Shown here one piece after another: positions 18,593 through 61,965 of a stretch of DNA of 64,000 bases (its first letter is position 1; each line of letters opens with the position of its first letter). The translations under genes were made by a program, and so were the position numbers. This DNA is from Psychrobacillus sp. BL-248-WT-3. GTDB taxonomy: Bacteria > Bacillota > Bacilli > Bacillales_A > Planococcaceae. A model generated the notes under the pieces. It was not told the origin of the DNA. It ran no database searches and saw only the letters and a list, made by a program, of their open reading frames with translations. The DNA is taken from positions 1 through 64,000 of the forward strand of contig NZ_JABAFC010000010.1 of the NCBI RefSeq assembly GCF_012843435.1. Reading direction: 5' to 3'.

Positions 18593-18628
18593 GAAACTAG
18601 ACATAACTTAGGTGATTTCTGTCGATCG

Positions 18629-18778
18629 AGAGACAGGCGATTGCGCTTTTCTATTTGTCTAGCTCCATCGCCTTGCCCCTCGGGGTCAAATGGATAAAAG
18701 CAGCGGTGGCTGAGGAGCTGCCTTCTTGCTTTTCTCCATTTGCCTGTCGGGGCAAAGACAGGCGATTGCGCTTTTCTT
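18629..18778. repeat. 125-bp hairpin repeat, family A (one full copy plus a remnant)
   Basis: Full copy from 18660, preceded at 18629-18655 by the 3' end of another copy (GAGACAGGCGATTGCGCTTTTCT). Arms CAAATGG.TAAAAGC and GCTTTTCTCCATTTG pair, as do the outer GCC..GCCCC and GGGGCA..GGC segments. It fills most of the gap between murAB and glpX. Confidence 0.85.
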
Positions 18779-23794: not shown

Positions 23795-24010
23795 ATGAAA
23801 GCAGGAATTCATCCCGATTACAAAGAAGCAACAGTATCATGTTCATGTGGTAACACATTCACAACTGGTTCTGTAAAATCAGACATTAAAGTCGAGTTCT
23901 GTAACGAATGTCACCCATTCTATACTGGACGTCAAAAATTCGCAGCTGCGGATGGCCGTGTTGATCGCTTCAACAAAAAATACGGAATTAAAGAAGAAAC
24001 TCAAGACTAA
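23795..24010 (+). CDS. rpmE: Ribosomal protein L31 (zinc form)
   Basis: 71-residue L31 of the large ribosomal subunit. The four zinc-ligand cysteines of the C+ type are present (CSCGNTF and [10 protein letters not shown]), as in RpmE rather than the zinc-free YtiA paralogue. [23 protein letters not shown] is the family's C-terminal signature. Position between rho and tdk matches B. subtilis. Confidence 0.96.
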
Positions 24011-24015
24011 TAACA

Positions 24016-24056
24016 AAATACCTGCAGAGCACTTAGTGCTTTGCAGGTATTTTTGT
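24016..24056 (+). terminator. Terminator after rpmE
   Basis: AAATACCTGCaGAGCACT-t-AGTGCTtTGCAGGTATTTTTG, a very stable hairpin with a T run. Confidence 0.85.
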
Positions 24057-24101
24057 TTATAGTTTAGGAAATTATAAAATTCTCAATCTGTGGATAGTGT
24101 C

Positions 24102-24345
24102 TAGCGCAAGCAGCCATGCCCCTCGGGGTCAAATGGATAAAAGCTCCGGTGGCTGAGGAGCTGCCTCCTCGCTTTTCTCCATTTGCCTGTCGGGGCAGAG
24201 ATAGGCGGTTGCGCTTTTCTTGATGTCTAGCTCCACCGCCTTGCCCCTCGGGTCAAATGGATAAAAGCTCCGGTGGCTGGGGAACTGCCTCCTCGCTTTT
24301 CTCCATTTGCCTGTCGGGGCAGAGACAGGCGGTTGCGCTTTTCTT
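24102..24345. repeat. 125-bp hairpin repeat, family A (two tandem copies)
   Basis: Copies begin at about 24102 (degenerate at its first 15 bases) and 24228. They share with the 61724 pair an extra upstream flank (GAAATTATAAAAT...CTGTGG). Intergenic between rpmE and tdk. Confidence 0.85.
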
Positions 24346-25018: not shown

Positions 25019-25048
25019 ACGAGTAGGTATTTCTAATACAATATAGAG

Positions 25049-25305
25049 AACCTTGCAGAGATGGCGCGGAACATTGCGGAGACGAAGCCGAACCTTGCAG
25101 AGATGGCGATGAACCTTGCAGAGACAGGGAATAACGTTGCGGAAATGAGCGAGAACTTTGCAGAAAGCCAAAAACCTTGCGGAGACGAAGCGGAACCTTG
25201 CGGAGATGGCGTGGAACCTTGCAGAGACAGGGACTAACCTTGCGGAAATGGGCAAGAACCTTGCAGAAAGCCGAAAACCGTTCGGAGACGAAGCGAAACT
25301 TTGAA
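25049..25305. repeat. 21-bp-period intergenic repeat array, locus II (about 12 units)
   Basis: About twelve units of 20-21 bases with core AACCTTGC(A/G)GAGA. Variable parts recur in the order B A C D E (gacgaag, gatggcg, gacaggga, gaaatg, gaaagcc), giving a ~105-bp higher-order repeat present twice. Because 21 is a multiple of 3, reading frames stay open through it on both strands, but these look like repeat artefacts. Confidence 0.85.
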
Positions 25306-47373: not shown

Positions 47374-47407
47374 GGTCGTGAAATGAACTATTTCACGGCC
47401 TTTTCTT
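47374..47407 (+). terminator. Terminator after spoIIID
   Basis: GGtCGTGAAAT-gaact-ATTTCACGgCC followed by TTTTCTT. Confidence 0.8.
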
Positions 47408-47532
47408 ATGGATTAAAGTGTTCTATGTATCGGTAGTATGGTTGGATAAAAAAAGATTATACATACGAAAAAGGAAAATATACTTTCCAAAATTAGTAAG
47501 TGGAAGTTAAGATATTTGAAAGGGGTGTGGAG

Positions 47533-48180: not shown

Positions 48181-48301
48181 ATAAATCCCTGTGAGCGGTG
48201 ATATTTTCAAAAACGCTTTCCAATCGATATCAATTATGCAAGCAGTCTCCCAGTACGAAGCGAATTGTGTGGAAATTGTGTGTGACACAGGGACAGACCC
48301 A
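48181..48301. repeat. Direct duplication, family D, copy 1
   Basis: ATAAATC.CTGTGAGCGGTGATATTTT... ending GTGTGACACAGGGACAGAC. Nearly the same as 48316-48431, with small indels. Confidence 0.8.
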
Positions 48302-48315
48302 AAGGAACACCGGTG

Positions 48316-48431
48316 ATAAATCTCTGTGAGCGGTGATATTTTACTCTTTCCAATCGAAATCAACTATGCAAGCGATCCCCCAGTCAGAAGCGAATTGTGT
48401 GGAAATTGTGTGTGACACAGGGACAGACACA
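48316..48431. repeat. Direct duplication, family D, copy 2
   Basis: Second copy. The terminal GACACAGGGACAGAC motif resembles REP-like sequences common in Firmicutes. No transposase is present nearby. The remainder to 48653 is the AT-rich mbl upstream region with an extended -10 (TGATAAAAT near 48580). Confidence 0.8.
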
Positions 48432-48653
48432 ATTCAATCCGATAGTCCCAATATAAGTATATGAACACTTACCTAGACAGGAATAGTGATAATAGTTTCT
48501 AATTCGTCAAAAATTTCTATTTTTTTATACTTTTTTGTCCAAAATGCTATTGAAAAAAACTGTTATTCTGACAAAACTATGATAAAATTAGATGTTAGAT
48601 ACATTACGGAGTTTACATATAAAAGTTTTAGTGAGGAAGGGGAAACACTAGTA

Positions 48654-60125: not shown

Positions 60126-60150
60126 TGTGTTACGGGTGCCTGGCACCTGC
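60126..60150. repeat. Palindromic GGTGCCTGGCACC motif
   Basis: GGTGC-CTG-GCACC within GTGTTACGGGTGCCTGGCACCTGC. Similar palindromes are scattered in Bacillales genomes. Single copy here; the surrounding gap 59996-60264 is otherwise empty. Confidence 0.5.
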
Positions 60151-60264
60151 AATAAATCTGTAATGCATGTGTAATATATACCCAATGTTTAGGAGGTTAG
60201 ACAGTGTTTTAAAAATATTTTTGTTGTTTAGGAAGGCGTTAATTTCATAGTATCAATTGTTGGC

Positions 60265-60757
60265 TAGCTACACCGCCTTGCCCCTCGGGGTCAAATGGAG
60301 AAAAGCTCCGGTGGCTGAGGAACTGCCTCCTCGCTTTTAACCATTTGCCTGTCGGGGCAGGGATAGGCGGTTGCGCTTTTCTGGATGTCTAGCTCCACCG
60401 CCTTGCCCCTCGGGGTCAAATGGAGAAAAGCTCCGGTGGCTGAGGAACCGCCTCCTCGCTTTTATCCATTTGCCTGTCGGGGCAGGGATAGGCGGTTGCG
60501 CTTTTCTGGATGTCTAGCTCCACCGCCTTGCCCCTCGGGATCAAATGGATAAAAGCTCCGGTGGCTGAGGGGCCGCCTCCTCGCTTTTCTCCATTTGCCT
60601 GTCGTGGCAGAGATAGGCGGTTGCGCTTTTCTGGATGTCTAGCTCCACCGCCTTGCCCCTCGGGGTCAAATGGAGAAAAGCTCCGGTGGCTGAGGAGCTG
60701 CCTCCTCGCTTTTCTCCATTTGCCTGTCGGGGCAGGGATAGGCGGTTGCGCTTTTCT
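60265..60757. repeat. 125-bp hairpin repeat, family A (four tandem copies)
   Basis: Copies begin at 60265, 60390, 60515 and 60640, exactly 125 bases apart. Each is a predicted hairpin: ACCGCCT-TGCCCC-loop-CAAATGGA.AAAAGC paired with GCTTTT.TCCATTTG-loop-GGGGCA-gagat-AGGCGGT, with a GAGG..CCTC tip. The arms differ slightly between copies, sometimes on one side only. Upstream of hag. Confidence 0.9.
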
Positions 60758-60826: not shown

Positions 60827-61654
60827 ATGCTAGGTAAGTGGAATGCGATGGGGTTATCTATTCTTCGCAATATGAATCAGCATTGGTCGGTTGCTAATCG
60901 GTCGATGGAACGTCTTTCCTCTGGTTATCGGATTAACCGAGCTGCGGATGACCCGGCTGGTCTTGCTATTTCGGAGAAGATGAGGGCGCAGATTAGAGGT
61001 CTTGGTCAGGCGGCTCGTAATATTCAGGATGGTATTTCGTTGTTGCAAACAGCTGAGGGAGCACTTAATGAGACACATGCTATACTCCAACGTATGCGTG
61101 AGTTAGGAGTGCAGGCTGCAACCGATTCTTTAACGGATGAGGATCGCAGCTTACTTAATATTGAGTTTGAGGAATTGAAAAAAGAGGTCACTAGAATCTC
61201 CAAGGATACTAATTTCAATACGAAAACCATGCTTGATGGCACTAACACCTCCATTAACATTCAGGCAGGGGCAAATGCAGGACAGTCTATTGAGCTCCTC
61301 TTTGGAGATATGTCAGGAGGAAGCCTTGGCTTGAATGATCTGTCGATTTCCTCAAGAGCTGATGCAGAAGATTCAATCGGTGGGTTAGACGATGCTATTA
61401 ACAAGGTTTCTCGGGAAAGATCTCGGATGGGGGCATACTCGAATCGATTGGAGCACGCCTACAATAACGCGGTTAACATGGAAGAAAACTTAACTGCAGC
61501 GGAATCTCGTATACGTGACGTAGATATGGCAAAGGAAATGATGGCATTAGTGAAAGCTAATATACTAATGCAGGCCAGTCAATACGTACTAAGCATGCAT
61601 ATGCAACAGGCTCAATCCGTATTACAGCTATTAAATTCGCACAAACAATCGTGA
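60827..61654 (+). CDS. hag: Flagellin, short divergent form
   Basis: 275-residue flagellin with D0/D1 parts only. N-terminal MERLSSGYRINRAADDPAGLAISEKMRAQIRGL and C-terminal ENLTAAESRIRDVDMAKEMMALVKANILMQASQYVLSM are typical, but the first residues read MLGKWNAMGLSILRNMNQHWSVANRS instead of the usual MRINHNIAALN, and the tail extends HKQS past LLN. The central D2/D3 region is minimal. GGGGGGTTAGGGG precedes the ATG. Away from other flagellar filament genes; could be an alternative or minor flagellin. Flanked by family A repeats on both sides. Confidence 0.88.
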   Translation: MLGKWNAMGLSILRNMNQHWSVANRSMERLSSGYRINRAADDPAGLAISEKMRAQIRGLGQAARNIQDGISLLQTAEGALNETHAILQRMRELGVQAATDSLTDEDRSLLNIEFEELKKEVTRISKDTNFNTKTMLDGTNTSINIQAGANAGQSIELLFGDMSGGSLGLNDLSISSRADAEDSIGGLDDAINKVSRERSRMGAYSNRLEHAYNNAVNMEENLTAAESRIRDVDMAKEMMALVKANILMQASQYVLSMHMQQAQSVLQLLNSHKQS

Positions 61655-61680
61655 CGCATTGTTCACGGTTGTTTTTTTGT
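61644..61680 (+). terminator. Terminator after flagellin
   Basis: ACAATCGTGA and TCACGGTTGT arms (G-U pairs) with seven T; the left arm includes the last codons and the stop. Confidence 0.75.
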
Positions 61681-61723
61681 ACTGGAAATTATAAAATCTT
61701 GAACCTGTGGGTAAATTTATGTC

Positions 61724-61965
61724 TAGCTCCACCGCCTTGCCCCTCGGGTCAAATGGATAAAAGCTCCGGTGGCTGAGGAACTGCCTCCTCGCATTTCTCC
61801 ATTTGCCTGTCGGGGCAGAGATAGGCGGTTGCGCTTTTCTTGATGTCTAGCTCCACCGCCTTGCACCTCGGGGTCAAATGGATAAAGCTCCGGTGGCTGA
61901 GGAGCTGCCTCCTCGCATTTCTCCATTTGCCTGTCGGGGCAGAGATAGGCGGTTACGCTTTTCTT
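61724..61965. repeat. 125-bp hairpin repeat, family A (two tandem copies)
   Basis: Copies begin at 61724 and 61848, same orientation as the array at 60265-60757, with the upstream GAAATTATAAAAT flank also seen at 24068. 61966-62088 beyond them holds only the S41 gene's leader. Confidence 0.85.

Follow-up and report, generated by a model that had tools for sequence, protein, structure and literature searches.

A family of hairpin repeats in the Bacilli, apparently placed behind intrinsic terminators, as a putative non-autonomous mobile element

In the Bacillus cereus group, the repeat families bcr1-bcr3 are described, in the portions of the papers cited, as intergenic, about 150 bp long, present in tens of copies, foldable, mobile and located in many UTRs (PMC2267715, PMC3446304, PMC6542083). 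The same portions restrict bcr1 to the B. cereus group and tie it to TTTAT motifs. Two further families, Bhal-1 and Bhal-2, are listed for B. halodurans (PMC2267715). As far as these descriptions go, the hairpin family reported here is like bcr1 in being intergenic, foldable, present in many copies and apparently mobile in habit, but it occurs in 32 of 145 sampled genera and stands behind terminators; the two families are set apart by description, not by sequence. A different comparison is offered by RAYT genes, which the cited part of the source describes as always flanked by inverted REPs (PMC2817692). Like REPs or BIMEs with their RAYT, the family consists of palindromic intergenic DNA in a genome with a low-copy Y1 transposase; unlike them, it takes the form of a 120-bp, multi-tier hairpin in direct arrays, with no unit within 1.5-2 kb of the 21 transposase loci searched. 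REPs, as far as the source describes them, have a GTAG/CGTC or GT(A/G)G head and a palindrome of 20-40 bp, whereas the unit is about 120 bp long with conserved GTCTAGCTCC and GCGCTTTTC ends. With classical MITEs the element shares its shortness, its non-autonomous character and its many copies, but its ends, ATTGTTTAGGAAATT and GCGCTTTTCTTG, are by eye not inverted copies of each other, no consistent target duplication was seen, and its target would be a structure rather than a short word; the label MITE, which a first-pass annotation had proposed, is not supported in its strict sense. Group IIC introns insert directly behind intrinsic terminators, in the sense orientation. The element was found in the same position and orientation, but it differs from these introns in its length of about 165 bp, in having neither a reverse transcriptase nor a matched intron RNA core, and in a 3' end of its own made of a hairpin and a T-tract.

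The window, by which we mean the whole stretch of 64,000 nucleotides analysed, belongs to a 3.8-Mb draft genome of 91 contigs (its own genome, G000), and a genome of the same species is available as one contig (G172). Lining up 41 arrays from G000 and 42 from G172 gave the anatomy of the element, with an order that recurs in the two strains: behind a gene and the intrinsic terminator that belongs to it come a leader of about 45 bp and at least one hairpin unit. The leader has the consensus ATTGTTTAGGAAATTATAAAATTCTGAACCTGTGGATAAATTGAT, and at most one was seen per array in these two genomes. Units have the form GTCTAGCTCCACCGCC...GCGCTTTTC and are separated by about 5 bases within an array. 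The whole element, leader plus a three-tier hairpin of about 120 bp ending in GCGCTTTTC, thus measures about 165 bp, and the repeat recorded by the first-pass annotation, which had no leader, is only a part of it. A profile search recognised the leader in 47 of the 83 arrays of G000 and G172; the other 36 include arrays cut by contig ends, internal deletions that keep the start of the leader, leaderless units directly behind a terminator and, by eye, at least eight loci that start within a unit and have no leader. These last would be truncated at the 5' end or have lost sequence later, and an RNA route would also account for them. In other genera a leader core close to AGRTAAGAAAGTATAAAATTTTG was recognised in 49 of 120 units. 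In 43 of 47 arrays the flank after the last unit begins with TT; at the third position 30 of the 47 have G and 10 have A, and since this third base after TTTTC varies, the 3' end of the element is nearly, though incompletely, fixed. No promoter on the + strand of the leader was called in a scan of window stretches. A promoter-like site on the minus strand (window 61715-61688) lies inside a leader and points away from the unit, the scan total of two against 3.3 expected being not above chance.

All nine copies that had been claimed for the window were found by a covariance model, on the + strand and with E-values from 2e-19 to 1e-26, two of them (the copies at 18657 and 60637) belonging to the 39-row alignment from which the model was made. 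The places given earlier are right, but each start had been set about 3 bases later than that of the model. The copies occupy four sites, each flanked by + strand ORFs. Between EPSP-synthase family (murA-like) and glpX ORFs lies a single unit (18657..18776, +; E 1e-26, a row of the model's own alignment), directly preceded by the 3' remnant of an earlier unit (18620..18651, +), so that the fragment suspected near 18629 is, as read from the sequence, a genuine one; at this locus (18620-18776) G172 has two full units. A second site lies between L31 and thymidine kinase ORFs. Here the L31 protein (PF01197 match at 23822-24010) is followed by the terminator-like hairpin of its gene (24015..24053, +; an 18-pair stem, then TGTTTATAGT), a leader (24059..24098, +; profile search E 7e-5), a first unit with the variant 5' arm GTCTAGCGCAAGCAGCC (24099..24219, +; covariance model E 2e-19) and a second unit (24225..24343, +; E 4e-25). 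The four-copy array, between an ORF of unknown kind and flagellin, was also delimited by Tandem Repeats Finder (60264-60757, period 125, 4.0 copies, 95% matches). Its units, all on the + strand, lie at 60262..60381 (E 8e-23, with the diverged 5' arm GGCTAGCTACACC), 60387..60506 (E 7e-26), 60512..60631 (E 2e-24) and 60637..60756 (E 2e-26, a row of the model's own alignment), the last having a terminator-like pattern at 60740-60753 and being followed by TTTTTTTTT. The automatic leader search gave no match at this array; comparison with other leaders places a degenerate one (GTTGTTTAGGAAGG...) at 60223..60261 (+). Between flagellin and S41 peptidase ORFs, the terminator-like hairpin of the flagellin gene (61643..61674, +; 12-pair stem) stands directly 5' of a leader (61676..61720, +; profile search E 6e-5), which runs into two units (61721..61839 and 61845..61963, both +; covariance model E 5e-25 and 1.5e-21); Tandem Repeats Finder reports this array as 61719-61965 with a period of 124. 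An exact period of 125, as had been stated, thus holds for the four-copy array, while the other two arrays are spaced 124 and 126.

A terminator-like hairpin in the same orientation was found within 120 nt upstream of 34 of the 42 arrays in G172, against 0/42 when approached from downstream and 19/380 in random windows drawn from the same loci. The corresponding figures in G000 are 18/25, 0/25 and 12/222; the two genomes have many loci in common, so these two sets are not independent. In other genera such a hairpin precedes 61 of 100 first units, against 1/100 from downstream and 53/906 random windows, and in 39 of the 100 none was detected, with a detector that may also take the end of another element for a terminator. 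Not entered in these counts, being non-first or too near an end, are 20 of the 120 units and, in G000, 16 of the 41 arrays. Terminator-like hairpins were found at 142 of 532 element-free gene ends. Among 46 units with a leader core the hairpin was detected in 30, ending 9-18 nt before the core (mostly 11 or 12, mode 12). In other genera, leaderless units lie 7-15 nt behind a terminator hairpin in 5 of 61 cases, and one element (locus L208) stands behind the terminator of a SAM riboswitch. The sequences show an element that is repeatedly found, in a single orientation, within the T-tract immediately following an intrinsic terminator.

The single orientation noted earlier needs to be restated accordingly. 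All nine window copies are indeed on the + strand, but genome-wide the arrays occur on both chromosome strands, and what is constant is their orientation relative to the upstream terminator. The upstream gene is co-oriented in 33 of 41 G172 arrays and 16 of 23 G000 arrays, figures that are uninformative, given the crude gene calls and the frequency with which adjacent genes point the same way. In G172, 33 of 42 arrays are also oriented according to the half of the chromosome in which they lie; with an origin at position 1 this would put them on the leading strand, and the pattern may simply mirror the orientation of the genes. Co-orientation with the upstream gene, as crudely called in G172, would also suit a device selected by the host, in which the units serve as extra terminators or as 3' mRNA stabilisers that insulate neighbouring genes, and so would the unit ends, each of which is GCGCTTTTC-like and which match a terminator pattern in 3/6 and 2/2 cases in two stretches. 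We consider such a device very improbable: many of the sites already have a good terminator, and the presence and number of units vary within a species, so that the varying sites do not need the element.

This variation was followed at 20 loci, defined as those where both flanks match one contiguous locus of the own genome, with matches counted and partial ones included. Fourteen of the 20 G172 arrays differ from the own genome in the number or presence of units, and six agree. For instance, the arrays flanking flagellin have four and two units in the window and two and three in G172. Six presence/absence sites can be read as possible insertions, four of them with an empty version free of remnants: L133:3853 against G000:C88:53575, L064:4440 against L153, L052:3959 against G172:3523499, and L140:11760 against L056. 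In each of the four, the empty version keeps the terminator hairpin with its T-rich tail, and the filled version has a leader and unit or units within that tail, in the orientation of the terminator; at L140 the two versions differ, in addition, in the sequence that precedes the terminator. The empty versions of the remaining two, L143 and L053, contain 11 and about 25 other bases. The first of these falls in the window (47400..47423, +; L143 aligned to the window), where G172 has a leader and one unit behind the same terminator; because about 11 further bases differ, it was not counted as a clean empty site. On a target duplication the empty sites disagree, TTAT or TT being possible at L133 and none being needed at L064 or L052, and the T-tracts vary in length. 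Strain-specific presence and remnant-free empty sites support the earlier suggestion of a mobile element. An alternative is that the family is immobile now, an old terminator-associated repeat whose local gains and losses come from slippage in replication and from homologous recombination, its 'empty' sites being deletions. Such deletions do occur, as the one-strain absences at L149:4105 and L153:3896 leave remnants; the partial copy at L154:6617 may or may not be a third case. Units are also more alike within than between arrays (identity 0.928 against 0.892 and 0.946 against 0.899, reached in 0 of 1000 permutations), which also speaks for this alternative. We nevertheless regard this alternative as improbable, both because L133, L064, L052 and L140 are free of remnants with hairpin and T-rich tail kept and because about 90% identity at unrelated loci needs recent spread or conversion. 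Only about 25 of 62 and about 26 of 59 units have their nearest neighbour within their own array, and with neighbours so often outside, the sequences make array growth seem mixed, by local duplication and by units added from elsewhere. In other genera, a leader-bearing element stands directly behind the 3' end of another element in 8 of 43 leader-plus-unit matches as we read them (a script count of nine includes an ordinary terminator at L223, and the eight include a degenerate end at L293), which suggests that the end of an element can itself be a target.

The unit is strongly structured on either strand. It folds at -65.7 kcal/mol on the + strand (z -5.1) and -63.9 on the minus strand (z -7.4), and in both cases 0 of 200 shuffled sequences were equally stable. 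An alignment of 39 diverse units (37 from the genome scan and two from the window) with 28 common pairs was used to follow the pairing across genera. It omits 6 of 43 non-redundant units (L212, L255, L271, L282, L287 and L319) that are short or fold oddly, which raises the paired share, and all its row ends were set by the search pattern, as was most of helix 1, so that helix 1 is no evidence. In helices 2-5, all 17 pairs have changed on both sides with pairing kept. Over the whole structure 92.6% of cells are paired, against 75.8% in shuffles, and the covariation score is 0.396, against 0.107 +/- 0.009 when shuffled and at most 0.116 for slid versions. The suspicion that the fold matters, voiced earlier together with the proposal to look for compensatory change across copies, is therefore supported, with compensation in 17 of 17 inner pairs. 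Wobble pairs are rare, with 8 G-T against 21 A-C among 1066 cells, or 8 of the 987 cells that pair. When 120 units are folded to minimum energy, G-U makes up 161 of 4584 pairs, against 476 of 3912 in shuffled sequences, and one-sided changes within Psychrobacillus comprise 42 G-T and 102 A-C, about half of the A-C coming from one column pair. Selection on an RNA helix usually tolerates G-U, and selection on the RNA of one strand should favour G-U over A-C. Given that G-T is scarce and rarer than A-C, the pairing of the unit looks as if it were maintained at the level of DNA, perhaps through a single-strand or cruciform role or through template switching between the arms. The same scarcity weakens the other identity proposed in the first-pass annotation, a transcribed structured RNA, although the compensatory change that it would share is present. 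Rfam 15 (all families, group II included) gave no match to the window copies, and in 20 other loci no intact unit matched above the gathering score. Matches to RF01690 (Bacillaceae-1 RNA) occur in two unit-bearing loci, at L258:943-1009 (+) and L208:6308-6374 (-), that in L258 being on the opposite strand, within an interrupted unit of an array.

Several of these features can be accommodated by an RNA-mediated spread, in which a read-through transcript ending at the element's own terminator is copied back behind terminators by the reverse transcriptase of a group II intron acting in trans, in the manner of a bacterial SINE-like element. Introns of the genus, which we take to be group IIC and which have GTGCG 5' ends, stand directly behind terminator T-tracts in at least 4 of 6 loci read; the element itself has no terminal repeats, one orientation, a slightly variable 3' end and strong unit structure, and the loci, at least eight, that start inside a unit look as 5'-truncated copies would. 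We nevertheless hold this route to be unlikely, because RVT_1 is absent from G000, G001 and G016, all of which bear the element and the first of which has elements missing in G172, and G-U pairs are scarce. Examined as a group II derivative, the family likewise gave no Rfam match in its window copies and no RVT_1 in its own genome. A reverse transcriptase in trans was accordingly rejected as a candidate for those three genomes. In relatives of Psychrobacillus, loci L183-L187 contain reverse-transcriptase-bearing introns whose 5' end is GTGCG and which follow a terminator T-tract immediately or at a short distance.

Y1 transposases recognise single-stranded hairpins and act in one orientation. 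A low-copy, RAYT-kind Y1 (HUH) transposase of the genus might mobilise the hairpins by single-strand transposition of the IS200/IS605 type, a chemistry that their single orientation fits, and PF01797 is present in 18 of 19 genus genomes, with 1-3 genes per genome, most of about 200 aa. Set against this are G002, which has the element without a Y1 gene, and the surroundings of the genes themselves: a covariance search of 21 Y1 loci in 18 genomes, with flanks of 1.5-2 kb, gave 0 unit matches at E up to 0.1, and inspection by eye of 330 nt on each side of 20 loci showed other short palindromes in several species. We consider mobilisation by this enzyme distinctly unlikely; in several species, a Y1 gene with palindromes before it may have a REP family of its own. 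The idea of a REP-like unit with a RAYT, for which matching ends had been expected at a transposase, thus fails at these 21 loci. Surveys of Y1 and RVT_1 in the genus genomes tied no mobilising enzyme to the element. A search for an autonomous parent with the same leader ended likewise, as 11 of 11 exact leaders in the own genome run into a unit (three of them truncated). At other loci, 9 of 52 matches to a leader pattern that misses most Psychrobacillus leaders had a different follow-on, namely seven copies of a second element in Pseudalkalibacillus and two that are apparently chance.

In its own genome the family occupies at least 96 places by BLAST, a lower bound since 40 of 83 first-look candidates were scored and leader and other searches added copies. 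Copies stand no more than 25 bases from at least 17 of its contig ends, as expected if short reads cannot cross the arrays. The covariance model found the unit in 60 of 398 genomes and 32 of 145 genera of the class Bacilli, under strict filters and with at most nine candidates scored per genome. Among the matches listed (at least 117 stretches), the carriers include Metabacillus, Cytobacillus, Mesobacillus, Neobacillus, Alteribacillus, Pseudalkalibacillus, Sporosarcina, Planococcus and Lysinibacillus. The element is also present in record NZ_JACSQO010000001.1 of P. faecigallinarum. Spread on plasmids or phages was considered and set aside: by blastn, which may miss diverged members, among 72,556 plasmid records a query from L252 matched one and the window query none, and among 50,697 phage records the L252 query matched none. 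Searches of the literature by sequence words and by topic returned no paper on the hairpin family and at most a 12-mer, in papers unrelated by title.

We favour, at slightly better than even confidence, the reading of the family as a non-autonomous mobile DNA element of Bacilli that is mobilised in trans, targets terminators and, because it resembles a terminator, also stacks on itself. Comparison of the genomes shows what this reading builds on, namely the target, the orientation, the variation between strains and the covariation; what we infer is a mechanism working on single strands, a shared cutting rule and a neutral effect on the host. A trans-acting enzyme working on single-stranded DNA would recognise a 'hairpin followed by T-tract', a rule that would fit the gene terminator, as target, and the element's own 3' end alike. 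It would cut or join at such sites, so that the segment between two of them is moved behind another. Between a gene terminator and the end of the first unit, this segment would be leader plus unit; between two units of an array it would be exactly one leaderless unit, giving the near-constant period. Local duplication would enlarge the arrays as well. To the host, all this would probably amount to a stack of additional terminators behind genes and otherwise be near neutral.

Terminators are usually regarded as transcription signals. A further step, which is possible but on the doubtful side, would be a new mode of DNA mobility in which one structure, an intrinsic terminator in the form of a single-stranded hairpin and T-tract, serves both as target and as donor end. 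Any DNA between two hairpin/T-tract sites would then be movable behind a third, so that no terminal repeats would be needed, stacking on the element's own 3' end would be expected, and the left end could be shared with other bodies, as in the second element of Pseudalkalibacillus. The machinery might be a chromosomal function that Bacilli share and that has gone unrecognised, of the HUH, integrase-like or repair kind. If the favoured reading is right, group IIC introns would be joined, as users of the terminator target, by a family present in 32 of 145 sampled genera. The family would also account for breaks in short-read assemblies, and 3' ends and gene read-through would change between strains. 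The family offers a directly testable case of fold conservation at the DNA rather than the RNA level.

Other repeats were met in and around the family. The second short element of Pseudalkalibacillus is about 100 bp long and has the same leader core (GTTAAGAAAGTATAAA) with a different body ending near GTTTTCTTTA; it occurs at L234:7310-, L288:3413-, L289:7521-, L301:4816-, L302:1065+ and 6697+, and L318:1548+, often behind T-tracts or behind a GCTTTTC end. In the window, the palindrome GGTGCCTGGCACC at 60135-60147, ahead of the four-copy array, is also found upstream of the Y1 gene in L188, and palindromes resembling it precede the Y1 transposase gene in several species. A 130-bp repeat present twice at 48181-48432, with GTGTGACACAGGGACAGACACAA, resembles palindromes beside the second Y1 gene of G172, and an array of 21-bp and 103-bp repeats occupies 25028-25303, where the ORFs are on the minus strand. 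Several units contain, at the same inner position, an insert of about 37 bp (TGCTCCTGCGCAAGCTCGTCGCAAACAAGAGCGTTTG), namely those at L042:4258-4414, L164, L170 and L171 in the own genome and L165 in G012; it is a small repeat nested within the unit repeat and has tandem relatives in G012.
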